Translations under genes and position numbers: made by a program
Source: a virus
IMG/VR virus record: IMGVR_UViG_3300025093_000080
Coordinates: 1-30,305 of that record
Length of the DNA: 30,305 nucleotides
Reading direction: 5' to 3' (one strand)
Notes under the pieces: generated by a model
Told to the model about the DNA's origin: nothing
Databases searched by the model: none
The model's input: the letters and a program-made list of their open reading frames with translations, nothing else
Shown: in pieces, positions 150 through 27,474 of the stretch
Layout of the letters: each line of letters starts with the position of its first letter
How positions within the stretch are numbered: the first letter of the stretch is position 1

Positions 150-327
150 CATCTTCATCCGCTATCTTTACAAGTTCATCTCCAACACCTAGATGACATC
201 TTGTGCATAAACCATAGGCTGTATTATCGTTATCAACCCACATCTCTAAAACACCGCCACACTCACAATACTGTCTTGTTAGTATGTATTCTTCTTTATC
301 TATTGGAAACTTTATTACCTTGCTCAT
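130..327 (-). CDS. Small zinc-ribbon-like protein
   Basis: A 65-aa protein from the ATG at 327; an in-frame ATG at 339 would add four residues. It has a CEC pair around residues 20-22 and a CTRC pair about 22 residues later, an arrangement that suggests a small zinc ribbon (inference). The C-terminus is acidic. It overlaps the end of the metallophosphoesterase gene by about 32 nt and the NinG-like gene by 20 nt, so the three are probably translationally coupled. No specific family is recognised. By position between phosphoesterase and NinG it may act in nucleic-acid binding, but nothing in the sequence proves this. The start is uncertain because both ATGs have weak ribosome sites. Confidence 0.6.
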   Translation of the reverse strand: MSKVIKFPIDKEEYILTRQYCECGGVLEMWVDNDNTAYGLCTRCHLGVGDELVKIADEDDGETRH

Positions 328-1495
328 TGCGAAGTCCATCTATTGTTATTTTGACTCTACTATCTTCGCCATTCTTCTTGTGATAAACAATAGCTGTCAT
401 TGATCTTTCTGCACCGTATCCTGAATCGCTGTGCCATTGATCAGTTGCCGTCAGGCTTCCCCAATGACTAAACTGCATCGATCCCACTTCCTTACTCATG
501 TGGTGATGGATATGCCCTAAATGACAATATCTGTTCTTACAGCGCGACCACTCATCATCCAGGTTGGTTATCACAGCTTGGAGTATCTGCTCGTGCTTTA
601 TTCTATCCCCATGATGATAAACAAATAGATTATTCTCCCATTCCCAATGCAAGAACTTAGAGTAATTTTGTAAGACATTTACTCTTGGCTCTTTGTCATA
701 CAATAGTTCCAAGCAACTGGATAAGTGGCAAGCCATATCACTGTCGTGATTACCGCGAACATTGATCACCACAACTTCCTGATGCACTTCTAGCATTCTA
801 TCTATTAGTATTTGAAACAACCTACCAGCAAGTTTAAAAGTCTTACCAATGCGCGTATCAACGTCTACTGGTGTTCCTGCTGTCGTGGTGTTTGCACTGC
901 TATCTGCATGGAAAAAATCACCAACATTAACTAACACTCCTGTGTGTGCATTACCTACTCTGTTAAGTAATCTATCAGTAGCTTCTAGCAATGATTTAGT
1001 TGCTATTTTCACATCCCAATCAGCGTCATCTAATTTAGTTTCTGAGTCAGCAAGCATCCCGAAGTGATGGTCACCGATCAGAATCATGGAGCAGTAATCA
1101 GTATCTACTATCTTAGGCGGTGCTACAGGCTCTTTAAAGCCACTTAGATCATCACGCAATCCATCGACCATAGCATCAATCTTTTGCCTTAGATCGCGTT
1201 TTTCTGGTTCCTGGATAACCCATTGCAGGGCGATTGATCCATCTTCTTTGTATGCTGTTGAGATTCGCTTGGCATTGAATCCCTCTGCTGTTTGGTGGGT
1301 AAGGTCACGATGGGGAGCGACTCCCTGACTCGCAGCTTTTTCTTCTACCATCTTCAATACTCTATGAACGTATCGTCTGCTGGCATTAATATCTTTGGCT
1401 GCTTGCGTTATTGATGGGGCATCACTTACTGCTTGAATAATCTCTTTCTGTCTTTCAGTGCTACAAAACGGTATTAGTATTTCAGGGTTTAGCAT
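296..1495 (-). CDS. HTH-metallophosphoesterase fusion (calcineurin-like)
   Basis: A 399-aa protein with two parts. Residues about 15-52 form a helix-turn-helix-like segment (IIQAVSDAPSITQAAKDINAS, then RRYVHRVL) as in terminase-small or resolvase-type DNA binders. Residues about 135-380 carry the full calcineurin-like metal-site set: DHH at 142-144, GDFFH at 192-196, GNHD at 248-251, HHGD at 294-297 and GHIHHH at 327-332. These ligands bind two metal ions in phosphoesterases and nucleases such as Mre11/SbcD. Phage members are probably nucleases or phosphodiesterases of DNA metabolism; substrate unknown. An AGGAG site sits 8 nt before the ATG, which lies 2 nt after the ninB stop, so they share an operon. 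Confidence is high for the fold and low for the reaction. Confidence 0.85.
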   Translation of the reverse strand: MLNPEILIPFCSTERQKEIIQAVSDAPSITQAAKDINASRRYVHRVLKMVEEKAASQGVAPHRDLTHQTAEGFNAKRISTAYKEDGSIALQWVIQEPEKRDLRQKIDAMVDGLRDDLSGFKEPVAPPKIVDTDYCSMILIGDHHFGMLADSETKLDDADWDVKIATKSLLEATDRLLNRVGNAHTGVLVNVGDFFHADSSANTTTAGTPVDVDTRIGKTFKLAGRLFQILIDRMLEVHQEVVVINVRGNHDSDMACHLSSCLELLYDKEPRVNVLQNYSKFLHWEWENNLFVYHHGDRIKHEQILQAVITNLDDEWSRCKNRYCHLGHIHHHMSKEVGSMQFSHWGSLTATDQWHSDSGYGAERSMTAIVYHKKNGEDSRVKITIDGLRNEQGNKVSNR

Positions 1496-1497
1496 CT

Positions 1498-1956
1498 CTA
1501 ACTCTCCTGTTGGTTTTTTATTCCCGCGTACTCACTTTCTTTTGGTATAGATAATTTTATTCCCAAGTCCATTGCCCAATGGTAAACCTGATCCAAGTAA
1601 TGCGACATATCACCTTTACTAAGGCTACTCGTGCTTTTAACTTGCTCGGCTATTTCTTCCTTGCCTATTTTATATGTTGTAGTTCCTAGAAACCTTTTCT
1701 TTAACCAAAGTTTCCAGACCTCTTCAGGCTTGTCATATTCTACCACATTGCCACGCGCAATCATTTCTTGCGCTATCTCCCTGTACCATATATGGGATAA
1801 TGCATTTTGACTTAGACTTCTTGGGTTTTGGTAACGCTCTAGCTTTACAACCAGAGCATCACTGTAATCCCAATCATTAAACTGCTTGATCAAGTACGGT
1901 ATCTTTTTTTCTATATCGTACTTATCTCTTATCAGAGTATATGTCCCTTGACTCAT
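1498..1956 (-). CDS. ninB: NinB-like recombination protein
   Basis: A 152-aa protein. The NRSLxQN-type motif of lambda NinB is present as NPRSLSQNALSHIWYREIAQ near residues 44-63, followed by helical segments and an STSSLSKGDMSHYLDQV stretch matching the conserved C-terminal part of the family. Lambda NinB (Orf) binds single-stranded DNA and substitutes for RecFOR in loading RecA-type recombination. Length is close to the lambda protein (146 aa). An AGCGGAG-like site precedes the ATG, which lies one base past the stop of the PP-loop gene, so these are co-transcribed. It groups with the Erf, SSB-like and NinG-like proteins as the phage recombination set. Confidence 0.8.
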   Translation of the reverse strand: MSQGTYTLIRDKYDIEKKIPYLIKQFNDWDYSDALVVKLERYQNPRSLSQNALSHIWYREIAQEMIARGNVVEYDKPEEVWKLWLKKRFLGTTTYKIGKEEIAEQVKSTSSLSKGDMSHYLDQVYHWAMDLGIKLSIPKESEYAGIKNQQES

Positions 1957-1957
1957 C

Positions 1958-2740
1958 TTAATCTCCGCAGAAACAACTCATTGTTGTATCATCAAAGTCA
2001 AACAAGTTCGGTTGGTCTGTGGCGATAATCTTTAACTCTTTGTATGGCGGAGAGTCTTTTCTGAAGCGACCACCAATACGCTCTTCTTGCGCTGCCCACC
2101 AATCTGCAAGACTAGGATTGTGTTCAATAATAGACTTTCTAATCTTAGTTCCTTTCAGAAAGCATAAATCACAATTACTAAGTGTGTTGTGTTCTGCTTT
2201 AGGTAGTCTGAGGTCAAAGTTTTGCTTTTGCCAAAACTCAGATATATCAACCTCTGTGATTTTAGCGTCAGCTAAAGGTACATGATAACCATCCTTATTA
2301 CGCATTTTCACAACTCTGTTTGGTTCATCGCCCCTGATACCTACAGCAGTATCGAACTCACAATCCATAAAACGCTCTATGGTAAGCACCTTTAACTCAC
2401 TAGTGCAAAACCTAGCCATACTGTTTGGCACATATTTACGCTCAGTTATTAGGATTTCAAACGGCTCGCCATTCCTACTAGCAGTATCATAGTCAACTAT
2501 ATTGAACTTCTTTTTACCAGCATACTCTAGCCAAGTGATAGGCACTTGCCAATTAATGCTGCAATGCTCAACAAAATCTAGAGTTTGTGGCATTTCTTTT
2601 CCAGTATTACAGAATATAACTTTGATGTGATCAGGAAGTTCGAAGTCATAGGCTTCTAAAACTTTGTACAAGAGAAAAGCGGAACTTCTACCACCGCTAA
2701 ATGAAATTACAGTTGTATCTTTAAAGGTAAATGGATTCAT
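1958..2740 (-). CDS. PAPS-reductase-family PP-loop protein with clustered cysteines
   Basis: A 260-aa protein of the adenine-nucleotide alpha-hydrolase superfamily. The PP-loop SFSGGRSS is at residues 13-20, followed by an FCNTGKE strand-loop at 43-48 and RFCTSELK at 110-117, the family's substrate-side motif. Cysteines at 112, 190, 193, 256 and 258 could hold an iron-sulfur cluster (inference, by analogy with DndC/TtcA-type enzymes). True sulfate-assimilation reductases have a different catalytic C-terminus, which is not seen here. Phage relatives are common but their substrate is mostly unknown; nucleic-acid sulfuration or another adenylation-dependent modification is possible. The start overlaps the preceding gene by 4 nt (ATGA). 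Confidence 0.85.
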   Translation of the reverse strand: MNPFTFKDTTVISFSGGRSSAFLLYKVLEAYDFELPDHIKVIFCNTGKEMPQTLDFVEHCSINWQVPITWLEYAGKKKFNIVDYDTASRNGEPFEILITERKYVPNSMARFCTSELKVLTIERFMDCEFDTAVGIRGDEPNRVVKMRNKDGYHVPLADAKITEVDISEFWQKQNFDLRLPKAEHNTLSNCDLCFLKGTKIRKSIIEHNPSLADWWAAQEERIGGRFRKDSPPYKELKIIATDQPNLFDFDDTTMSCFCGD

Positions 2741-3051
2741 AGTGCCATCCTCAGATACTTGTTCATCATCTTCTCAGCATCTGTTTCACATCTATCTTCG
2801 AAAACCTGTTTGACAGCTTGCTCAACTGGTCTGCCGTCTAATCGTATGAATGGACTGTCACACTTAGTTTTTAACACTTCATCAGTAATAACTCTCTCAC
2901 CATCCTGATATGAAACCGACATCCTACTTCTAATACTGGTCATCAGCATACCGTTGATATTTTGTATATCTTGGTATGTGTAGTAACAACCTTTTTTCAT
3001 ATACTTGCTTTCAGTTCCAACATATTTAAACCTAGCAGCTTTTCTACCCAT
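2737..3051 (-). CDS. Small protein, paralogue of its upstream neighbour
   Basis: A 104-aa basic protein. The start chosen is the ATG at 3051, because an AGAGGAG site lies 6 nt before it and it overlaps the previous stop as TGATG; a start at 3072 would lack this. The N-terminal half (K-x-KGCYYTYQDIQNINGM, then SIRSRMS) matches the upstream neighbour's GKFYTYHQLREVIGA, then CIKGRLS, so the two are tandem paralogues. The YTYxxIxxxxG...IxxRxS pattern looks like a small helix-turn-helix, suggesting DNA binding (inference). The C-terminal part, with RLDGRPVEQAVKQVF, is unique to this copy. No named family is recognised. Confidence 0.65.
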   Translation of the reverse strand: MGRKAARFKYVGTESKYMKKGCYYTYQDIQNINGMLMTSIRSRMSVSYQDGERVITDEVLKTKCDSPFIRLDGRPVEQAVKQVFEDRCETDAEKMMNKYLRMAL

Positions 3052-3320
3052 CACAATCTCCTCTTTAACCATTTTTGCGATAAAAGCATAGACTCCGTTT
3101 CTAAGTTTGAAGTAATCCTTTCTTCTTGCTTTTTGTTTCCACTTTTTGAATAAGGCTCATACAAGTCATCTATAGTGCATTCTTTTTTTCCAGACAGTCT
3201 GCCCTTAATGCAATAGTAGCTTGCACCGATAACTTCTCTTAACTGATGGTAAGTATAAAACTTACCGTCAACTAACTCAGGATGTTTGCCCCTGAACTTT
3301 AGGTATTTTGTTTGAGCCAT
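3051..3320 (-). CDS. Small HTH-like protein, tandem paralogue
   Basis: An 89-aa basic protein. Its core, GKFYTYHQLREVIGASYYCI followed by KGRLSGKKECTIDDLY, resembles short phage DNA-binding proteins in which a helix-turn-helix follows a conserved FYTY strand. The same pattern recurs in the next gene. The start at 3320 overlaps the preceding gene by 44 nt; a GGGAAG element lies about 8 nt upstream. Expression as part of the leftward early operon is likely. Function is unknown; a regulator or DNA-binding accessory protein is the best guess. Confidence 0.6.
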   Translation of the reverse strand: MAQTKYLKFRGKHPELVDGKFYTYHQLREVIGASYYCIKGRLSGKKECTIDDLYEPYSKSGNKKQEERITSNLETESMLLSQKWLKRRL

Positions 3321-3687
3321 GTTCTAGCTTCCCATCAAAATAGTAGCCGTTTTTATTTAAGTAAAACTCTTTTGCTCTCTCTTTTGATTCAACATTCTGC
3401 ACCCATGAAACATCAGCTAACTTATGCTCAATAGGTATATCCCTAGAACTTTGCTTTCTTTGCTTTGCCATTGGAGAGCCACCAGATTCAGCAGCCCTCT
3501 TTAACCAAGAGTCAATAAACTTCTTCATTCCACGCTTGGTTTTTCTTCTGGATGGATTTGCGTCTAACCATGATTCCATAGACAACAACTCAATCCTTAC
3601 ATCGACACCTCGTTCTGAGTACGCTCGCTCCCAAGCAATCATGTCAGCTTGCTCAGGCTCGAATGCGCTTCCATCTTTACAGATCAT
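3277..3687 (-). CDS. Phage replication/accessory protein with ANPSRRKTKRG motif
   Basis: A 136-aa basic protein. The start at 3687 is preferred over 3696 because GGTGAAG sits just before it. Residues about 10-65 contain FEPEQADMIAWERAY and then WLDANPSRRKTKRGMKKFID followed by SWLKRA. This Trp-Leu-x-Ala-Asn-Pro-x-Arg-Arg-Lys-Thr block is a recurrent element at the C-terminal end of phage replication-initiator or helicase-loader-like proteins (general family knowledge; exact family not assigned). The remainder is basic and low in recognisable features. It could be a DNA-binding replication accessory. It overlaps its upstream neighbour by 11 nt and its downstream neighbour by 44 nt. Confidence 0.65.
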   Translation of the reverse strand: MICKDGSAFEPEQADMIAWERAYSERGVDVRIELLSMESWLDANPSRRKTKRGMKKFIDSWLKRAAESGGSPMAKQRKQSSRDIPIEHKLADVSWVQNVESKERAKEFYLNKNGYYFDGKLEHGSNKIPKVQGQTS

Positions 3688-3991
3688 TATCTTCACCGTA
3701 ATAGTATTCAGCTACAGAGCATTTTTCATCATAACGATTTGTAACCTTGATCATACGTTTAGCTATGGGATGCCCTTGCTCTTTTAACTCAAATATACGA
3801 CTAGCTACCTGTGTAATACCTAATTCATTAAAAGCATTCAAACAGGTCAGCTTCTTACCCTCTTGCAAATACGATAAAACTCTTTCTTGTTGCGTCATAG
3901 GTTTCTCCTTTGATTTATTAAATATAGCGTCATAGTTTGCATCAAACTTTGCTTGATTGGTTGGTCTTTGTTTACTACCTTTGCCACTCAC
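3677..3991 (-). CDS. Phage helix-turn-helix protein
   Basis: A 104-aa protein. The start taken is GTG at 3991, with GAGG six bases upstream, immediately after the stop of the ABC-GNAT gene; an upstream TTG at 4024 has no ribosome site. The N-terminus (GKGSKQRP, then FDANYDAIF) matches a short segment found at the front of many small phage proteins. Residues about 33-90 (MTQQERVLSYLQEGKKLTCL, then NAFNELGITQVASRIFELKEQGH) fit the phage winged HTH type in Pfam HTH_39 (from memory). It probably binds DNA. Tight coupling to the fusion gene upstream suggests co-expression, but a shared function is unproven. Confidence 0.75.
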   Translation of the reverse strand: MSGKGSKQRPTNQAKFDANYDAIFNKSKEKPMTQQERVLSYLQEGKKLTCLNAFNELGITQVASRIFELKEQGHPIAKRMIKVTNRYDEKCSVAEYYYGEDNDL

Positions 3992-3992
3992 A

Positions 3993-5060
3993 TTAAACCT
4001 CACATTTGTTATTTTGTTTGCCAATATATTCGTGACTATATGAAAATACTTCTCTTATTTTCCACCTGTTATTACCTGTTGCATCTTTTCTTGCAATCAT
4101 GTTTTTTGATGTTGCTCTCCATAATGGAGATTTATTTCTGTAATTACCCATTTTAGGATGAGTTGTTTTACTAAAATAACGCTGGTTATTTTTTATATGC
4201 ATCTCACCAACAGCATCACTTATTCTTACTCCGATACCTAATCCTTGATAATCAGGTAACACAACTGTTCTATGCCCTCTGTACGCATTTTTTATAGTTC
4301 CACTAGGCATACTCAATGTTGATGTAAATCCAACAATATCTGATCCCCACAAACATATCCAGTGTTTTGCACTTTTATTAAGGTTTCCTGTGAGATAGTG
4401 ATGGTCGCGGAATACTGTCCACGCTGATTCCCCACAAGGTAAGACTTGTATTTTGATTTCGGGTCTACAAAGTGACCCCCTTGCAAGATAAGTTTGCGAT
4501 AATGTGTCATAAACCCAATCAGGCTGTAGCCATTCAATAATATCTTTATGGCAAGATGCAAAAACAATAGATTTTAAATCATTTTCTTTTATGTATTTAC
4601 TGATTGCAGTTGAGCATGACTTAGCTACTGATCTATCCACTACACTTGTGAACTCGTCAACAACACAATTATCTGAAAGCTGCCTCGCAAGGTCGGCTCT
4701 ATATTTCTCCCCAGTTGATAAAACATTGTATGGTCTAAACCAAGTAGGTATAGAGTTAAGACCAACAGCAAATAATTTATTTTGAGCATCTTCTGCTGAT
4801 GCAAAATGTGAAACTATTGACTTGCTTTCTTTCCAATCTGGTTTTATTTCTGTGCCAAACCTTTTTAATAAAGTGCTTTTACCACTACCTGAATGACCAA
4901 CAATCAATCCTATATTAAAGCTGTCTTTAGGCATTTCCATTCTTGGAATTTTAAATTTTGTTTTACCATCAAAGTTATAATCAAAGTTACGACTAACTTC
5001 GTCAGTAATTTCATCTTGCATAATGTTTTCAGTTAATAACTCATCTTTAAAGAAATACAT
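3993..5060 (-). CDS. ABC-type ATPase fused to a GNAT/Mom-like domain
   Basis: A 355-aa protein from the ATG at 5060, preceded by AAAGGGG six bases away; a TTG at 5081 is less likely. Residues about 1-200 are a complete ABC ATPase without membrane segments: Walker A GHSGSGKST at 55-63, signature LSTGEKYRADLARQL from 114, Walker B CVVDEFTS at 132-139, D-loop VVDR and switch His171. Residues about 205-355 are a GNAT-type domain with the acyl-CoA-binding motif TVVLPDYQGLGIG at 265-277 and HHYLTG at 220-225. The order matches COG2401 (ABC-type ATPase fused to an acetyltransferase). The C-terminal half also resembles phage Mom-like proteins; Mu Mom modifies adenine in DNA and has a GNAT-like fold. 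DNA-base modification is plausible but not shown. Confidence 0.85.
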   Translation of the reverse strand: MYFFKDELLTENIMQDEITDEVSRNFDYNFDGKTKFKIPRMEMPKDSFNIGLIVGHSGSGKSTLLKRFGTEIKPDWKESKSIVSHFASAEDAQNKLFAVGLNSIPTWFRPYNVLSTGEKYRADLARQLSDNCVVDEFTSVVDRSVAKSCSTAISKYIKENDLKSIVFASCHKDIIEWLQPDWVYDTLSQTYLARGSLCRPEIKIQVLPCGESAWTVFRDHHYLTGNLNKSAKHWICLWGSDIVGFTSTLSMPSGTIKNAYRGHRTVVLPDYQGLGIGVRISDAVGEMHIKNNQRYFSKTTHPKMGNYRNKSPLWRATSKNMIARKDATGNNRWKIREVFSYSHEYIGKQNNKCEV

Positions 5061-5102
5061 TTTTTCCCCTTTATGGCTCAACTAAAGTTTCGCCCGATTG
5101 AT

Positions 5103-5402: not shown

Positions 5403-5480
5403 TCTTGTTTTGTAGTAAATTCAAGTATAGTCTTTCCTGAGACTAAAAGTAAAGCCCCTTAATTGGGGCTTTATTTTTTT
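5403..5480 (+). ncRNA. Candidate plus-strand small RNA 2
   Basis: An extended -10 element TGATATACT (5388-5396) would start RNA near 5403. No good -35 is visible. The predicted 75-80 nt RNA has a hairpin TAGTCT-TTCCTG-AGACTA (5428-5445) and ends in an intrinsic terminator (5451-5480). No plus-strand coding frame explains the unit. The hairpin loop exposes a TTCCT stretch complementary to Shine-Dalgarno-type sequence. Existence of the transcript is inferred. Confidence 0.4.
5451..5480 (+). terminator. Intrinsic terminator, stronger on the plus strand
   Basis: AAAGCCCC, loop TTAATT, GGGGCTTT (8-bp stem, 5451-5472) followed by TTATTTTTTT on the plus strand. On the minus strand the stem is followed by ACTTTTAG, so it may also end the leftward regulator and membrane-protein transcript, whose last stop codon (5471-5473) lies inside the stem. 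Confidence 0.75.
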
Positions 5481-5701
5481 ATCCTTTCTTGGAAGTATCT
5501 TCTGATAATAAAAACTCTTGTATATGCTGCTACGGTCATAAAAGCAGTTATAGTAGTTCCTATTACAACAGATGATGTCATCCCTGCAATATCAATACAT
5601 ACAAACAAACCTATGATGTTTAATGGGTAGTTGATAATTAATCCAGTAAACACTGTAGTGAATGTTTCTTTATGTATTGACCTGTTATCTGCTTTACTCA
5701 T
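5471..5701 (-). CDS. Small phage membrane protein (DUF7220-like)
   Basis: A 76-aa protein starting at the ATG at 5701, which overlaps the end of the regulator gene by 8 nt; longer starts run out of frame through that gene. Two hydrophobic segments (about residues 13-33 and 38-58) are followed by the basic end RVFIIRRYFQERIKK. The pattern of a short polar N-terminus, two membrane helices and a terminal RxxxxRRxF is shared with a family of tiny phage inner-membrane proteins of unknown function (DUF7220, from memory). It is translationally coupled to the XRE regulator. Confidence 0.65.
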   Translation of the reverse strand: MSKADNRSIHKETFTTVFTGLIINYPLNIIGLFVCIDIAGMTSSVVIGTTITAFMTVAAYTRVFIIRRYFQERIKK

Positions 5702-5900
5702 ATTTCTGATAAAGTAAAAAATCATAGATAGACAAATCCATCGCAGCACATATCTTTTCTAATGTGTGCAACTTCATATTTTTTTGCTGTCTCCATCGCA
5801 CAACTTGTTGCGGTGTACTGTCAGCACGTTTAGCTAAGTCAACGCTAGATACACCTAAATCTATCTGAGCGAGCCTTAGACACTTTCCTGCATCAGTCAT
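5694..5900 (-). CDS. XRE-family HTH regulator (Cro/repressor-like)
   Basis: A 68-aa protein that is essentially a single helix-turn-helix domain: SSVDLAKRADSTPQQVVRWR (residues 18-37) forms the HTH, followed by LHTLEKICAAMDLSIYDFL, typical of the XRE/HTH_3 fold. There is no C-terminal cleavage or dimerisation domain, so it resembles Cro or a short repressor rather than a LexA-like CI. It lies downstream of Erf and the SSB-like gene, and palindromes occur at 5383-5397, 6912-6930 and 6942-6953 that it could bind (inference). The ribosome site is weak (GGATT about 10 bases upstream). Confidence 0.8.
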   Translation of the reverse strand: MTDAGKCLRLAQIDLGVSSVDLAKRADSTPQQVVRWRQQKNMKLHTLEKICAAMDLSIYDFLLYQKYE

Positions 5901-9459: not shown

Positions 9460-9623
9460 TTTTTGCCACGAAGTTCCTTTACAGTGTCGCTTTCCCATAT
9501 ACGGATACCGTACCAAACGATTGTAAATATAGCTGCAATAGGTGGAAGCCAAGCGGCAAGTGCTGCTATACCTGTTGATGCTGCGGCTAAATCTAAAACT
9601 TGCTTTGGTTCTTCTGTCATCAT
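9456..9623 (-). CDS. Small holin-like membrane protein
   Basis: A 55-aa protein, starting MMTEEPKQVLDLAAASTGIA. A single hydrophobic segment at about 18-41 contains AAWLPPIAAIFTIVWYGIRI and is followed by a charged tail ending ELRGKK. A short acidic start, LDLAAASTG, AxLPPIAA and IVWYGIRIWE match small class-II/III-type holins of T7-like and marine phages (family memory). The start codon overlaps the subtilase stop as ATGATG/TGA, and the stop overlaps the next start. This fills a gap that would otherwise look noncoding. It would give the phage two holin candidates. Confidence 0.65.
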   Translation of the reverse strand: MMTEEPKQVLDLAAASTGIAALAAWLPPIAAIFTIVWYGIRIWESDTVKELRGKK

Positions 9624-11674
9624 GTTATACCTATTACATTGTTAGTGAAGCCACTGTAGTCAAAAATCCCCTGTGTTGTTGCATCGTCATAATCAAAACT
9701 TTCCCAGTAAAAGGTCTGCTTTACAGGATCAAAATCTGCATCATGCCTACCTAGCTTAACTAGCGTTTTATTCTTTTTATTATAAAGTTCTAATGCAATC
9801 CAATTATGTGCATTAATATTGTTAGGATCGCCATTCAATCCCAACTCAACTGTAATCTTATCTGCAAACGAATCAAATATAAGGTGCTTTAGCTTGAACC
9901 CATTATACAACATATTTGCATCAACATTTTGAAAACTACTCGAAACACCATAATTTTCCGCCAAACCTTTTGGCAAAACTCCGCGACCAGAAAATGTAGT
10001 TGATTCTGGTTTATATTGTGTTTTTAATTTGTATGGTGTTCCTAAATTAACACATTTTATGCTTGCAGAATTATTGATTGTAAACGTGTTATCTTGGTTA
10101 AATTTGCTATATAAAAGTCTGTTTGGCGTATCTAGAAAAGAATTTAAAGTTGTGTAATCACCAGTGCTATTAATAATATCTTTTGTGCTATCTTCTATTA
10201 TTATTTCTTTCAGTGCGTCAGCAGATAAATGGGGTCTATGACTTAAATACAATGCCATTACACCAGCAGTTTGCGGTGCTGCACAACTTGTACCGCCAAA
10301 GCTATGTATTTTTTCATTGGGATACTCTGGATGCGCCCTTAATTCAGCTAAGTTTGTTGCTAATTTTGAAGCAGCGCAAAATGAGTTGTTAGCCGCAGCC
10401 ATAATATCTATAGCTTTGCCTCTATTGCTGTAATTTGCAATAATTTCTTTATCGGTAGTGCCATCTAGGTAGTTATCTAATGCTCCACAATATAAAGCAG
10501 AATCGCTATATGGAGTTCCAACTCTATTAGGGTAGATTGTTCGTGTTGTTCCATTTTGGCTTACAGTTAAAAAATTATCATATTCTGGATCATCTGGCTT
10601 TACATTTCTAATTCCACTATTGCCAGAAGATATGGCAAAGTGACAGCCTAAATCTATCAATTCGTCAACTTTTGCATTAATTGAAGTTAAAATTGCGTTT
10701 ATATAATTGGATGGAGTCAATCTGTAGTTGTTTAATAATTCATCATCTGTTAATGCACCGCGATTCCAGCTTGCTCTTTCAGTGTTTTCATCGGCATAGC
10801 TACCACCAAGCACATCTTCTAAATCATATCCTGTGGTAACAAATCCAAAACTGCAATTAATAACTACTTGTCTATTTATTCCTTGCGATTTTCTTGTCTC
10901 TACAAAATCTTTAATTAAACTGAGCCAAGTTCCAGTTGTTGGATGATTAAAGTTAAAATCGCCTATTTTAGCCTTGCAAGAATATATGTGCGCGTTTTTT
11001 GCCCAACCGTATCTTAATCCTGCTGAAATGCTTGCACATTGCGTACCATGAAAACCCTCATCTTCAATATAGTAATTTTCAGGTCGTAAGTTATTTCGTC
11101 TGGCTTGTTCACCAGCTTCGCTAAAAAAACCAGTTTCTTCAACGTAAGGTGTCCAATCTATTTTTTGTACTCTGCTGTTTCCATAAGCATCGTTAAAGTC
11201 AGGATGATCTGCTTGAACGCCTGTATCTATAATAAATATATCAACACCATGACCAGTGTTATTATATGTGTAAGTGTCACTAAATTCTGTATTGACATCA
11301 CCTGAAAGATCGTCATACAAAAACTCTTCTCTGCTTGTGTGTCTGATTAGACCATAATTTGTAAGTTCTAGGTTGGTGCTTGTTGTGTCTTTTCTATTAA
11401 AGTCGTGATTCGCCTGTGCTGTATGAACGCAGAATACGTCATCTCTTTCTTCAAGGTCTAACTCAACATCAAAAACCTTACTGTTATTTTTTAAGGCTAC
11501 CGCCTCTTCATGCGTCAAGTAGCACTGACTAACTCTCTTAGACGTTTTGCATTCATCTGTAATCTGAACCGATCTTTCAGGAACTGTATCATCACCAAGA
11601 TCAGATTTTAATTGATCTTCGATCTCTGTAACATCTTCGCCTTTATAAGAGATAACATTGTATTTATATTTCAT
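9620..11674 (-). CDS. Subtilisin-like serine protease (S8) in the tail module
   Basis: A 684-aa protein. The catalytic triad is visible: Asp150 in DIFIIDTGVQADHPDF, His209 in GFHGTQCAS and Ser463 in GGTSCAAPQTAGVMALYL, with the oxyanion Asn352 in SSGNSG. Residues 1-110 include YLTHEEAVALKNNSKVFDVE, which resembles the propeptide or structural N-terminus of phage-encoded subtilases. The C-terminal 180 residues form a separate beta-rich domain. There is no signal peptide, and the start overlaps the 852-aa fibre gene by 11 nt, so it is probably a virion-linked protein that may cut surface proteins of the host or process tail proteins (inference). Subtilases occur in other marine phages' structural regions. 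Confidence 0.9.
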   Translation of the reverse strand: MKYKYNVISYKGEDVTEIEDQLKSDLGDDTVPERSVQITDECKTSKRVSQCYLTHEEAVALKNNSKVFDVELDLEERDDVFCVHTAQANHDFNRKDTTSTNLELTNYGLIRHTSREEFLYDDLSGDVNTEFSDTYTYNNTGHGVDIFIIDTGVQADHPDFNDAYGNSRVQKIDWTPYVEETGFFSEAGEQARRNNLRPENYYIEDEGFHGTQCASISAGLRYGWAKNAHIYSCKAKIGDFNFNHPTTGTWLSLIKDFVETRKSQGINRQVVINCSFGFVTTGYDLEDVLGGSYADENTERASWNRGALTDDELLNNYRLTPSNYINAILTSINAKVDELIDLGCHFAISSGNSGIRNVKPDDPEYDNFLTVSQNGTTRTIYPNRVGTPYSDSALYCGALDNYLDGTTDKEIIANYSNRGKAIDIMAAANNSFCAASKLATNLAELRAHPEYPNEKIHSFGGTSCAAPQTAGVMALYLSHRPHLSADALKEIIIEDSTKDIINSTGDYTTLNSFLDTPNRLLYSKFNQDNTFTINNSASIKCVNLGTPYKLKTQYKPESTTFSGRGVLPKGLAENYGVSSSFQNVDANMLYNGFKLKHLIFDSFADKITVELGLNGDPNNINAHNWIALELYNKKNKTLVKLGRHDADFDPVKQTFYWESFDYDDATTQGIFDYSGFTNNVIGIT

Positions 11675-18624: not shown

Positions 18625-19077
18625 TCATTTACCTATATACTTAGAAAATATACGCTCTATGCAATTATACTGCATCTTTTCTAATAGCTTATCGAATGGC
18701 GCATGAATTTTTGTGTTTATATGTATGCAAGAAACACCTATCTTTTTTAGATGTTCTTCAGCGAATCTTATCAGCTTATATCCAACCATACCTTTTCTAT
18801 GATCTGGATGAACAAATATAATATCGCAAGTAGCAAACTTGTGATCTACATAGTGCAATGAGTCCATGACTATAACTATGAAATAGCCTACAAGAATGCC
18901 TTTATCACGCGCTATATACGCAAATAATACGTTATTTTCATTTAATGTTATGTATTGATCCCAAGCAGGGTTTAGCTTGATTTTGTCTTTGTTTAGAGCG
19001 ATTTGCTCCCAATGCATTTCAAGCAAAGGCTGTATTTCGTCTTTAAAGTCTGCAACCTTTTCAATAGTAAATTCCAT
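18625..19077 (-). CDS. GNAT-family acetyltransferase in the tail module
   Basis: A 150-aa protein with GNAT features: a long N-terminal helix (DEIQPLLEMHWEQIALNKDK), the motif A strand-turn CDIIFVHPDHRKGMVGYKLIR near 97-117 with RKGMVGYKL as the acyl-CoA pyrophosphate loop, and a C-terminal motif B region with IHINTKIHAPF. It would transfer an acyl group from CoA to an unknown acceptor. It is embedded between a minor tail gene and the tip gene with one-base gaps, so it is made with late genes. Such GNAT genes recur at this place in phages with this tail type; a role in tip maturation is possible but unproven. Confidence 0.75.
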   Translation of the reverse strand: MEFTIEKVADFKDEIQPLLEMHWEQIALNKDKIKLNPAWDQYITLNENNVLFAYIARDKGILVGYFIVIVMDSLHYVDHKFATCDIIFVHPDHRKGMVGYKLIRFAEEHLKKIGVSCIHINTKIHAPFDKLLEKMQYNCIERIFSKYIGK

Positions 19078-23708: not shown

Positions 23709-24965
23709 TTATGCAGTTTGCTTACAGAAGCTACCGCCATGACGTACAGCAGCATCAACAGACTGTAGTGCAACAACGCGCACTGTACCAGTAGTAGAAG
23801 CTGTGTATGGGTCAACTACGATGTCTAGTCCACCGAACATACCAATTAGTAAGTCGCTGAAGTTACCGAAGTAAGCGTGTTGTGCAGACGCTTGGTTAGT
23901 AACAATCGCTCTGTAACCATTGATTTGACCGTTTTCTAGTACGAAAGAGCCAGAACCTGTGTCTTTAGCAGTGCCTTTCAAAACGCCAGCCATGCTTGGT
24001 GGCAAGATGTAAGACAAGTTGCCAAGAAGAGCATTCTCAGTAGCAACTTCAGTTTCCATCTCAATCATTTCTGCAAAAGTTGGAGCAGTTGCATCAGCGA
24101 AAGTGATAGCCTGAACACCATTAGCATTCTCAATACCAGTTGGCTGACCAGAAGCACCTGTACCCTCTAGACCAGCTTTATCAATAGCGATTGCCATTGC
24201 TTTAGTAAGGTCATCACGGATTAGGCTTTCAACGTCTAGGCTAGATTGAATCAAAAGCTGACGAGTAACGTCTGTGAATGCACCTAGAGTTTTAGGTGAA
24301 AGACTTACATTACCAATAGTCATTTCTGATTCAGTTGCAGCACCACCCTCAGCAGAAATCCAAGAAGCAGATGCAACAGCAGTTTTCTTAGGAATCTTAA
24401 CGTCACCGCTTAGACCACCTAGCATAGTTGCACCAGCAGCCATCACAGATGAAGAGTTGCGTAACGCATCAATGAAATCACCGCCACGGAAATCTTCACC
24501 AATCAAATCGCCATCACCTTTGATAACTACAGGGTCTGCGCCATCAGCAGCAGCACCGAGATCACGCTTGTTCCAAGTGCGTAGAACTTCAGCAGGAAGC
24601 ATAATGCCTTGTGCAGTTTTACCGTACTGTTCCGCAGCAGCCCGTGAACATTCAAATTCGAATGCAGCAGCTTCTTGTGCCTTACGATCAGTTGGGTTAG
24701 CTAGAGCGTGAATTGCTCTCATCATGCTGAAACGCTTAGTTTCTGCTTTGCTCATGCCGATGTCTTGGCTTTCAAGAGCGTTTGTAGAGCCAATAGACTC
24801 TAGTAGTGCGCCACGGAACTCATCGATAGACTGACCAGAAGCGATTGCTTCACGAGCCATATCTGATTTGTTGTGACGTGCGCCTAACTCAACAATTTGA
24901 GCGGCATTTTTTTGTGCGGCTTGCTGGGCTTCAGCTTTTACCGCTTCTAAATTAACTTCTGACAT
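23709..24965 (-). CDS. Major capsid protein from an internal start
   Basis: The in-frame ATG at 24965 (Met346 of the fusion) is preceded by AGAGGA (24978-24973) with a 7-base spacer, one of the better ribosome sites in the window. Translation from it would give a 418-aa HK97-fold capsid protein without the protease. A helical delta-domain-like start (VKAEAQQAAQKNAAQIVELG) occupies about 90 residues before the shell fold. Capsid is needed in hundreds of copies and protease in few, so an internal start makes biological sense. The alternative is that all capsid arises by self-cleavage of the fusion. Confidence 0.6.
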   Translation of the reverse strand: MSEVNLEAVKAEAQQAAQKNAAQIVELGARHNKSDMAREAIASGQSIDEFRGALLESIGSTNALESQDIGMSKAETKRFSMMRAIHALANPTDRKAQEAAAFEFECSRAAAEQYGKTAQGIMLPAEVLRTWNKRDLGAAADGADPVVIKGDGDLIGEDFRGGDFIDALRNSSSVMAAGATMLGGLSGDVKIPKKTAVASASWISAEGGAATESEMTIGNVSLSPKTLGAFTDVTRQLLIQSSLDVESLIRDDLTKAMAIAIDKAGLEGTGASGQPTGIENANGVQAITFADATAPTFAEMIEMETEVATENALLGNLSYILPPSMAGVLKGTAKDTGSGSFVLENGQINGYRAIVTNQASAQHAYFGNFSDLLIGMFGGLDIVVDPYTASTTGTVRVVALQSVDAAVRHGGSFCKQTA

Positions 24966-26000
24966 AATATTGTCCTCTTTAAGGGAAGTTCTAATTACGG
25001 GTTTATTTTCAGCTTTGCCTGAACGCCCAACGCCAACTGTCATATCGGCAGGTATAGACACCAAACTTGCTTCAACAGGTTTCCATGACTTAGCGCGATA
25101 AGTTTCCTTATCATCGCTGTCTCTTTCCATCTTGCCAATAGAATAACCAACAGAAATGTTAGCTTTGATTCCATCAACAACATCAGAGAAAGCCTCACGA
25201 GCCAATTCACCTTTTCCAAAGCGAACTTCTGCGCGGAGTCTACGCGCATTCTCGTCTAGCTTAACTGATTTGATAACACCGATTTGCTTTTCAGGGTCAT
25301 GGTCTAAAAGCAATGGTGCGCGACCTGATGCAAGGAATGACAAATCAATCGACTCCTTACCGTGGTCTAATACCTCATTACCAAATGAACGAGCAACAGG
25401 CTCTTCACTGGATAACGCTATTTTAACTGTTCTAGTCTCTTCATCTATTGGAGACATTTCCATCTCCATAGCACGATGCTGTACTTCAGGACTAGCTGAA
25501 CGATCAGTTTCTTCTACCACTTCATCTGTAGTCTCTTCTACAGCTTCAGCAGTTTCTTCTACTGTCTCTTCAACTACTTCTTCAGCACGAACCTCATCAA
25601 CAGACTCAACAGTAGCTTCTACTTCTACTTCATTGTCCATATTTACAGCCTCTTCGTTTCTATCATCGTCTAACATACCAGCAATCTTCCTAGACCAAGA
25701 AAACCCAGCATCGCCACCCCATAATGCCCAAGCAATACGCCCTGCACTAGGATAACCATCTTCACCAGGGCTGAAGCCCTCTGCTTTCTTGTCTACTTCA
25801 TGCCGACTAAAGAAAGAGTACATTCTTTTTACTGTATCGAATGACAACTCTTTTCTATTCTTAATGTCTCTAGCCCTAGCAACACCAACTTCAGTGCCAC
25901 CACGACCAAACTCTTTACGCCATTCTAAACCTTTCTCGGCTTCTGACACCATTCCGTCAGTTGGCTTAGTGTTTATGTCCTTACCCTTGTACTTCGGCAT
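23709..26000 (-). CDS. Prohead protease and major capsid protein fusion
   Basis: A 763-aa protein from the ATG at 26000, six bases after GGAG; the two ATGs just upstream are too close to that site. Residues 1-105 form a conserved domain (GVARARDIKNRKELSFDTVK then GYPSAGRIAWALWGGD) seen before phage proteases. A Glu/Val-rich linker spans about 120-165. Residues about 175-330 are an S78-type prohead protease with His234 in LLLDHD and Ser283 in ISVGYS. From about 346 to the end is an HK97-fold capsid protein, with ISAEGGAATESEMTIGNVSL then SPKTLGA, and the C-terminal strands. A ribosome site and ATG at 24965 (Met346) would yield free capsid. Cleavage at that junction is expected. Confidence 0.9.
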   Translation of the reverse strand: MPKYKGKDINTKPTDGMVSEAEKGLEWRKEFGRGGTEVGVARARDIKNRKELSFDTVKRMYSFFSRHEVDKKAEGFSPGEDGYPSAGRIAWALWGGDAGFSWSRKIAGMLDDDRNEEAVNMDNEVEVEATVESVDEVRAEEVVEETVEETAEAVEETTDEVVEETDRSASPEVQHRAMEMEMSPIDEETRTVKIALSSEEPVARSFGNEVLDHGKESIDLSFLASGRAPLLLDHDPEKQIGVIKSVKLDENARRLRAEVRFGKGELAREAFSDVVDGIKANISVGYSIGKMERDSDDKETYRAKSWKPVEASLVSIPADMTVGVGRSGKAENKPVIRTSLKEDNIMSEVNLEAVKAEAQQAAQKNAAQIVELGARHNKSDMAREAIASGQSIDEFRGALLESIGSTNALESQDIGMSKAETKRFSMMRAIHALANPTDRKAQEAAAFEFECSRAAAEQYGKTAQGIMLPAEVLRTWNKRDLGAAADGADPVVIKGDGDLIGEDFRGGDFIDALRNSSSVMAAGATMLGGLSGDVKIPKKTAVASASWISAEGGAATESEMTIGNVSLSPKTLGAFTDVTRQLLIQSSLDVESLIRDDLTKAMAIAIDKAGLEGTGASGQPTGIENANGVQAITFADATAPTFAEMIEMETEVATENALLGNLSYILPPSMAGVLKGTAKDTGSGSFVLENGQINGYRAIVTNQASAQHAYFGNFSDLLIGMFGGLDIVVDPYTASTTGTVRVVALQSVDAAVRHGGSFCKQTA
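24966..24980 (-). promoter_or_regulatory. Internal ribosome binding site before the capsid domain
   Basis: AGAGGA at 24978-24973 on the minus strand, then seven bases to the ATG at 24965, all inside the coding sequence of the protease-capsid fusion. It is located at the boundary of protease and capsid domains. Confidence 0.6.
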
Positions 26001-27474
26001 CATCATCTCCGATTATATCAGGATTTACACTGTTAAAGTTAGCCCCATAAGGCTCTAATGCGTAGGATATGCCATATTGTTCCGCTATATCCTTATCTCT
26101 TGCGATCTGAGACACTAACTCTTCTACATCCTTACCATACTGACTAGCAACGTCAGATAGGCTTAGAACGCCTGATTTAAGCCCTAGAATCGCTGCATTC
26201 ATCTCTTTCTGTGGGTCTACCCAGTTCCAAGCCTTGCCACGGAACTCAGCAGCATCAGAGAATCGGTCATACTGGCGAACAGGTATGCCAAAACTATTAA
26301 CTTCCATAGCTGCTGAAAGCCATTCATCATAAACAACTCGCACGAAGTGATCAGTAACGAACTTCTGTAAATTCTTGTAGGAATCGCGCTCTTCTAGCGC
26401 ACCTTGACGGATAGAACTGTAGGATACCGATTCTAGATCATTAGATAGAGCAAAGTAGCTAACACCTAACGCTGAAGCTATACCTTTTAGTACCGCCTTG
26501 TGGAATGAGTCAAACTCATTATTTGGATACTGTGGGTCGAATGACTTAAAGTCTACGCCATTTGGTAGCTGATGGAAAGTGCCAGGCTGTGCTTCCATGA
26601 TAGGCATATTGCCATCTAGGTCATCAGCGACAAATCCATCACCGCTAGGCGAAGTGAAGAAGCCCATCTTGCTCGCACCAATACGAGCATTTACAACCGC
26701 AGCTTCTCTTAATGCACCTAATTGCTTCATAGCAGAAATAGCTGGTGTCATCCACGGCTCACCGCGAGTTTGTCCTGCTCTGCTTGGGTCATACAAGTGA
26801 ATCATTCTTTCAGCAGGGATTCTAACGTGCTTTGGAGACTTTCCTGTTGTTGTATAGTCGTAATCGCCTGGATGATAGGTAAGAACATGATAAGCAACAG
26901 GCTTTCTGAAGCGATCTAGTTCGACACCCATGCGTACTTCATTGCCATTGGATAGTCTTTCGTTCTTCTGCTCATCAATCTGATCAGGCTCTAGGAACTC
27001 TAAAGCGAACGAATCATGGAAGTTAGCACCACGATGCTTAACAATAAACACTTCACCGTCACGCGCTAGGCACTCAATAGCTAGTTTCTGTGCATCTACC
27101 CACGACATACTGCCGTCTACAGTACAATTACCTAGCTTACCCCACTTGCGGAACGCTGACTCAACGCGCTGATTACCGTCTTGATCTAATCTGCCTACAG
27201 AATCTGTTGCTTTTACCTGTAATCCAAAGCCTTTTTCGCCAATGACGTTATTTTTAAGCAGATTTAGGTATTTTTTAGCATATTCATTGTTTCTAGCTAA
27301 ATCTCGTGATCTAGAGCGTATTTTGCGTAGTGCAGGGCGTAATTCTGAGTCTGCTGACCTTTCTGAACCCTTAAAATCAGCAAAAATGTGTCCAGTATTA
27401 GCCGCAGCGTATGATCTCTTGAAGATTTTGCCTTTATTCTCGGTTTTTGGCTTAAATATGTCAAAAAGAGCCAT
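25981..27474 (-). CDS. Portal protein (lambda gpB family)
   Basis: A 497-aa protein of the Phage_portal_2 type. RDLARNNEYAKKYLNLLKNN followed by VIGEKGFGLQVKA is the conserved N-terminal block. Later DEQKNERLSNGNEVRMGVEL and the GIASALGVSYFALSNDLESV then SYSSIRQGALEER block are the diagnostic portal motifs. Portals form the dodecameric ring through which DNA enters the prohead and which binds the terminase and the joining proteins. GAGG is six bases upstream of the ATG. The gene abuts the connector stop and overlaps the next gene by about 20 bases. Confidence 0.92.
   Translation of the reverse strand: MALFDIFKPKTENKGKIFKRSYAAANTGHIFADFKGSERSADSELRPALRKIRSRSRDLARNNEYAKKYLNLLKNNVIGEKGFGLQVKATDSVGRLDQDGNQRVESAFRKWGKLGNCTVDGSMSWVDAQKLAIECLARDGEVFIVKHRGANFHDSFALEFLEPDQIDEQKNERLSNGNEVRMGVELDRFRKPVAYHVLTYHPGDYDYTTTGKSPKHVRIPAERMIHLYDPSRAGQTRGEPWMTPAISAMKQLGALREAAVVNARIGASKMGFFTSPSGDGFVADDLDGNMPIMEAQPGTFHQLPNGVDFKSFDPQYPNNEFDSFHKAVLKGIASALGVSYFALSNDLESVSYSSIRQGALEERDSYKNLQKFVTDHFVRVVYDEWLSAAMEVNSFGIPVRQYDRFSDAAEFRGKAWNWVDPQKEMNAAILGLKSGVLSLSDVASQYGKDVEELVSQIARDKDIAEQYGISYALEPYGANFNSVNPDIIGDDDAEVQG

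Follow-up and report, generated by a model that had tools for sequence, protein, structure and literature searches.

The virus record IMGVR_UViG_3300025093_000080 of IMG/VR, a marine-type phage whose 30,305 bases were all analysed here (the window), encodes a fusion of an ABC ATPase domain with a GNAT acyltransferase domain, which we call ABC-GNAT. We consider it probable that this protein is a phage DNA-modifying enzyme, in which an ATP-dependent ABC half would cooperate with a GNAT half acylating a base, as a defence against restriction, and that a PP-loop protein encoded in the same gene run lies outside the unit. An earlier note on this DNA had proposed the two proteins together as a candidate for DNA modification. 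The proposal holds for ABC-GNAT alone, on the strength of a published prediction for its family, of an exchange with DNA methyltransferases at its genomic position, and of methyltransferase, ParB-like and formyltransferase genes beside its relatives; the partnership with the PP-loop protein, in contrast, is not supported.

Both reading frames on which the note was built, 3993-5060 for ABC-GNAT and 1958-2740 for the PP-loop protein, are present on the minus strand, and the shared gene run was confirmed as one tightly packed stretch of that strand. The ABC-GNAT protein has the following features.

3993..5060, minus strand: ABC ATPase-GNAT fusion of 355 residues, with a full-length match to phrog_11143 and two domains in the AlphaFold2 model
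4467..5060, minus strand: ABC ATPase domain, residues 1-198, with invariant ABC motifs and Z 14.0 to the MJ0796 cassette
4872..4898, minus strand: Walker A motif GHSGSGKST, residues 55-63, its core invariant across homologues
4707..4721, minus strand: ABC signature LSTGE, residues 114-118
4653..4670, minus strand: Walker B stretch, residues 131-136, ending in D135-E136
4548..4550, minus strand: H-loop histidine H171
4011..4463, minus strand: GNAT acyltransferase domain, residues 200-350 (Acetyltransf_7 E 2e-4, under the curated cut-off; Z 13.7 to 1y9k and 13.2 to RimI)
4395..4403, minus strand: HHY motif, residues 220-222, the sole local likeness to Mom
4230..4247, minus strand: acyl-coenzyme A (acyl-CoA)-binding motif QGLGIG, residues 272-277, with Q272, G273, G275 and G277 invariant in 39 sequences

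The ABC motifs were found where the note had placed them (G55-T63, L114-E118, Walker B ending in D135-E136, and H171). Across 39 diverse ABC-GNAT homologues, G55, S57, G58, G60, K61, L114, S115, G117, D135, E136 and H171 are invariant, and this motif conservation is far above chance. Pfam matches are fragmentary (ABC_tran E 1.2e-5, Acetyltransf_7 E 2e-4). An AlphaFold2 model computed from 38 natural sequences, with a mean predicted local distance difference test score (pLDDT) of 88.5 and a predicted template modelling score (pTM) of 0.83, consists of two well-folded domains. In a structure search with this model, residues 2-198 resembled ABC cassettes (Z 14.0, MJ0796) and residues 200-348 resembled GNAT enzymes (Z 13.7, 1y9k). 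Model and structure matches thus agree on an ABC ATPase that continues into a GNAT-like domain, as had been claimed. The gene is under purifying selection (nonsynonymous divergence dN 0.225 and synonymous divergence dS 2.26, window against the phage locus L007), and its G+C content of 34.2%, compared to 40.1% for the window, is the pattern expected for a recently exchanged gene. A possible earlier TTG start lies at 5081. Assignment to a known defence system was tried and rejected: PADLOC returned weak ATPase matches alone (mad3 1.7e-8, PtuA 1e-4).

The whole protein matches phrog_11143 (E 3e-112 over residues 11-353), a family without assigned function, and its best phage match is QAX98348.1 of the T4-like Aeromonas phage AsFcp_2, with 47.8% identity. 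PMC7824862 names this accession for an ABC-ATPase/GNAT system predicted to acylate a base in DNA. Since its family has already been so predicted, DNA modification by ABC-GNAT is an existing prediction; the family and the function class were both put forward earlier, and the window protein is a further member of the predicted kind. It shares with the predicted family full-length homology, the domain order and the invariant motifs, and differs in its host phage, in its slot and in having no ParB-like, methyltransferase or formyltransferase neighbour. In the literature the window member and its slot were found nowhere described, and searches on COG2401, on phage N4-acetyl-deoxycytidine and on ParB with GNAT and ABC gave nothing beyond PMC7824862, whose reference 136 may contain the ParB link.

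The family is widely spread. Among 50,697 phage records, 79 match ABC-GNAT; in 41 the match covers at least 80% of the protein, and the best matches are T4-like Aeromonas phages. Annotation splits the ABC and GNAT domains into two genes in Tenacibaculum phage pT24 and several Streptococcus phages. When 84,980 genomes of bacteria and archaea were scanned, 327 relatives were obtained; among the best 80 of these, to which all genome neighbour counts below refer, many are in Planctomycetota and many lie beside phage packaging genes. In L012, L062 and their relatives, ABC-GNAT is 67-69% identical while the early region is very different from that of the window (helicase, RecA-like ATPase, nuclease), which argues that the gene moves between phage types.

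The evidence that bears directly on the window comes from the slot in which the gene resides. The early and recombination block, at low coordinates, runs in transcription order from a Cro/C1-type helix-turn-helix (HTH) gene through DUF7220, a hairpin, ABC-GNAT, HTH_39, three small open reading frames, PP-loop and NinB to an SbcD-like gene:

5694..5900, minus strand: Cro/C1-type HTH, upstream edge of the exchangeable slot (PF13443 E 2.5e-9), kept in L086, L087 and L089
5471-5749, minus strand: DUF7220 membrane-type protein
5450..5473, minus strand: terminator-like hairpin upstream of the ABC-GNAT gene, a pattern match alone
3677..3985, minus strand: winged-HTH protein (HTH_39, PF14090 E 3e-12), directly downstream of the slot
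1958..2740, minus strand: PP-loop protein, a NinC relative resembling phosphoadenosine-phosphosulfate (PAPS) reductases (phrog_424 E 3e-45; lambda NinC likeness; fold of adenosine-phosphosulfate (APS)/PAPS reductases)
1498..1956, minus strand: NinB-like recombination mediator adjoining the PP-loop gene (phrog_72 E 6e-28, PF05772 E 6e-5)
296..1495, minus strand: calcineurin-like phosphoesterase of SbcD/exonuclease type, in the same recombination block (phrog_704 E 2.5e-84)

The nearest relatives of the window phage, as judged by the PP-loop protein, are L086 and L087. Their gene order is that of the window (HTH, slot, HTH_39, small reading frames, PP-loop, NinB, SbcD-like), with identities of 79-80% for the PP-loop protein, 68% for NinB and 81-82% for the SbcD-like protein. 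Between HTH and HTH_39, a C5-cytosine DNA methylase (PF00145 E 2e-49) takes the place of ABC-GNAT. In closely related phages the same genomic position is therefore held by either of two enzymes, although the methyltransferase, which depends on S-adenosylmethionine, is unrelated to ABC-GNAT in fold and chemistry. The slot region of L092, L096 and L097 contains another member of this methylase superfamily, with a PCQ motif, which is 27-30% identical to that of L086 and L087 over about 100-150 residues.

Outside the window, ParB-like, methylase, formyltransferase and packaging genes form a context that applies to the window protein by homology alone. A ParB-like gene lies directly upstream of ABC-GNAT in 62 of the 80 bacterial or prophage loci and, after clustering at 60% identity, in 28 of the 35 clusters; the modal overlap between the two genes is 18 nucleotides. 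ParB hits in the genome stretches were adjacent to ABC-GNAT in 65 cases and farther off in 5. The N-terminal region of phage DNA methyltransferases resembles this ParB-like domain (phrog_498 E 4.5e-45), suggesting that the same module is either joined to a methyltransferase or placed next to ABC-GNAT as a gene of its own. Moreover, an N6/N4 DNA methylase adjoins ABC-GNAT in L012, L013, L023 and L026-L028, and a formyltransferase (Formyl_trans_N, PF00551) is found directly downstream of it in 11 viral and 7 genome loci. Many ParB-type pairs are followed downstream by TerS, TerL and portal genes, a position that would suit an enzyme acting just before packaging. A ParB-like partner was not found in the window. 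Two further observations were made at these loci. The DNA methyltransferase beside ABC-GNAT in L027 (6323-8875) has a long intein-like insertion past its DPPY region. The formyltransferase behind ABC-GNAT shows start/stop overlaps in L067, L070, L073-L075, L078, L079 and L081-L083, where a two-step base modification would be possible.

How such an enzyme might work can be outlined. If other soluble ABC ATPases are a guide, the ABC half would dimerise on DNA in an ATP-dependent manner and would hold or remodel the duplex, while the GNAT half would use acyl-CoA to acylate the exocyclic amino group of a base. Phage DNA acylated in this way would resist host restriction. TmcA, an ATPase-GNAT fusion, makes N4-acetylcytidine in RNA, and this precedent renders base acylation by an ATPase-GNAT protein plausible. 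DNA as the substrate, the identity of the base and of the acyl group, the clamp-like action of the ABC half on DNA and the protection against restriction are what we infer. More tentatively, and with somewhat less than even confidence, one may see here a separate class of ATP-driven base acylation in phage DNA, in which a ParB-like partner would load ABC-GNAT before packaging, a formyltransferase would in some phages finish the reaction, and a new base would result; the window version would stand alone, in a slot otherwise taken by a cytosine methyltransferase. If the predicted base acylation is borne out, ATP-dependent DNA acylation would be spread over marine, T4-like and Gram-positive phages and the prophages of Planctomycetota, with a product so far undescribed. 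Concrete test systems are offered by the exchange with methyltransferases and by the partners of ParB-like and formyltransferase type, and these hint at action during packaging.

Several points weigh against a DNA-modifying role. The literature gave no biochemistry on the ABC-GNAT family. The clade of the tree to which the window protein belongs (24 leaves, support 0.99) has neither ParB nor formyltransferase genes as neighbours, so that the context of another clade is carried over to the window by homology. The slot of L089 is occupied by an HNH gene, and that of other relatives by small reading frames or by none; methyltransferases are common accessory genes, and an exchange of slots alone is no proof of shared function. 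Finally, the fold matches to RimI and 1y9k fit the acetylation of proteins or small molecules equally well, and it is proteins or small molecules that GNAT domains more often acetylate.

ABC-GNAT could thus be imagined as a protein acetyltransferase serving host takeover, whose GNAT half acetylates host RNA polymerase, a ribosomal protein or a defence protein while the ABC half acts as a conformational switch. The GNAT half is indeed structurally near RimI and other N-acetyltransferases, and phages are known to acetylate RNA polymerase with a GNAT (Rac, cited in PMC7824862). We regard this as unlikely, since the ParB-like and methyltransferase neighbours, the position beside terminase genes and the exchange with methyltransferases in the slot all indicate DNA. 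An acyltransferase directed at tRNA or rRNA would have in TmcA a proven ATPase-GNAT fusion acting on a nucleobase, and there are weak NCBIfam matches to ABC-F ribosomal proteins (E 3e-7, far below the cut-off). The GNAT toxins, which acetylate charged tRNA (PMC7641849), offer a second analogy. The neighbourhoods, however, are DNA-centred, and no tRNA or translation genes were found in the window; an RNA target accordingly seems improbable to us. The usual database label would make ABC-GNAT the subunit that binds ATP in a transporter for small molecules, with an acetyltransferase as accessory. ABC motifs and fold are compatible with it, and the annotation of several records reads ABC or siderophore transporter, but no transporter-like gene occurs among the conserved neighbour clusters of viral or genome loci, and the nearby DUF7220 membrane protein is absent at the same place in L086 and L087. 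Such a function is very hard to credit.

The preferred reading, a DNA-modifying enzyme, does not make ABC-GNAT a Mom. The GNAT half had been said to resemble Mom, the methylcarbamoylase of phage Mu (PDB 8bv8). Both belong to the GNAT superfamily and have a short (H)HY motif where the domain begins, and the proposed outcome, phage DNA modified before packaging, is alike. BLASTP against a single Mom-like protein gave E 5e-4, with the likeness confined to the stretch around HHY. A comparison by hhalign with a nine-member Mom-like alignment gave E 0.011 over 30 residues, no better than an unrelated window GNAT used as control (0.0016), and the PRNSES-type motif of Mom-like proteins is absent from ABC-GNAT, which has the canonical and invariant QGxGxG in its place as well as the additional ABC domain. 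The 50 matches listed for the ABC-GNAT model are taken up by other GNAT and ABC chains, and the absence of the Mom structure 8bv8 from them carries no weight by itself. In Aeromonas phage PX29, a Mom-like gene exists apart from the ABC-GNAT gene. Of the claimed resemblance the short HHY motif is thus what stands; it is possible that ABC-GNAT works like Mom, and its identity as a Mom is not supported. The control GNAT is a second, stand-alone one (PF00583 E 9.6e-8), situated within the tail gene block at 18625-19077 on the minus strand.

That ABC-GNAT acts jointly with the PP-loop protein, whether to sulfurate DNA or to modify its bases, had been suggested by their shared gene run and strand, and some features of the PP-loop protein favour it. 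Its loop S15GGRSS20 is present as described. The protein has eight cysteines where the note counted five; five of the eight, C112, C190, C193, C256 and C258, are invariant in 47 homologues. PADLOC profiles match it as SspD (E 1.9e-16) and, weakly, as DndC (6e-4), enzymes of DNA phosphorothioation with which it has the PP-loop ATP pyrophosphatase domain in common. The match to the PAPS-reductase-like family phrog_424 is far better (E 3e-45). Unlike the genes for DndC and SspD, the window gene sits in a NinB block without sulfuration partners: cysteine desulfurase, DndB/D/E and SspB/C were not found among the 34 other window proteins scanned, in a record that may be incomplete. Sulfuration of the DndC type is therefore unsupported, the SspD match notwithstanding.

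Co-occurrence speaks in the same sense. ABC-GNAT and the PP-loop protein were found together in the window phage and its two near-identical (98-99%) copies only, that is in 1 of 39 ABC-GNAT clusters. The PP-loop gene was absent from all of 35 further ABC-GNAT records, which were searched over their full length, and from all of the 80 ABC-GNAT genome loci, nor was ABC-GNAT found in any of 36 other PP-loop records; the searches recovered known positives. With 402 PP-loop matches and 79 ABC-GNAT matches in the phage records, fewer than one chance co-occurrence is expected, and we take the single lineage as background. Many records are fragments, which makes each single negative weaker and leaves the pattern unaffected, given the synteny of L086 and L087 across the region. 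There, the PP-loop gene stays in place where ABC-GNAT is exchanged. Cooperation of the two proteins is thus highly improbable, and a link that had seemed suggestive when judged by the sequence no longer stands.

The PP-loop protein belongs, as a NinC-like member, to the adjacent lambda-like recombination block and lies outside the modification unit. It is 32% identical to lambda NinC over 203 residues (E 1e-22; hhalign 99.8%), and NinB adjoins both. The two differ in gene order, which is reversed in the window (PP-loop before NinB), and in the C-terminal CFCGD tail of the window protein, which lies outside the part aligned to NinC. Its fold is close to APS/PAPS reductases (Z 12.7) and, at a somewhat lower score, to LarE-type sulfur transferases (Z 11.2). 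As the latter can carry a [4Fe-4S] cluster, the idea of a putative iron-sulfur cluster in the PP-loop protein is a reasonable one.

The minus strand carries the main genes of the window, among them a lambda-type terminase, a portal, and a capsid and tail set. No RNA elements or tRNAs were found in it. Because the terminator-like hairpin precedes ABC-GNAT, this gene is probably the first of a new transcription unit. Four small genes separate it from the PP-loop gene (3677-3985, 3277-3696, 3051-3320 and 2737-3072). Among the structural genes, the prohead protease (PF04586) and the major capsid protein (PF05065) apparently form one reading frame of 765 residues (23709-26006, minus strand). A subtilisin-like protease of 684 residues (PF00082 E 9e-24; 9620-11674, minus strand), an enzyme unusual for a virion gene block, is encoded beside a tail-fibre-like reading frame of 852 residues.

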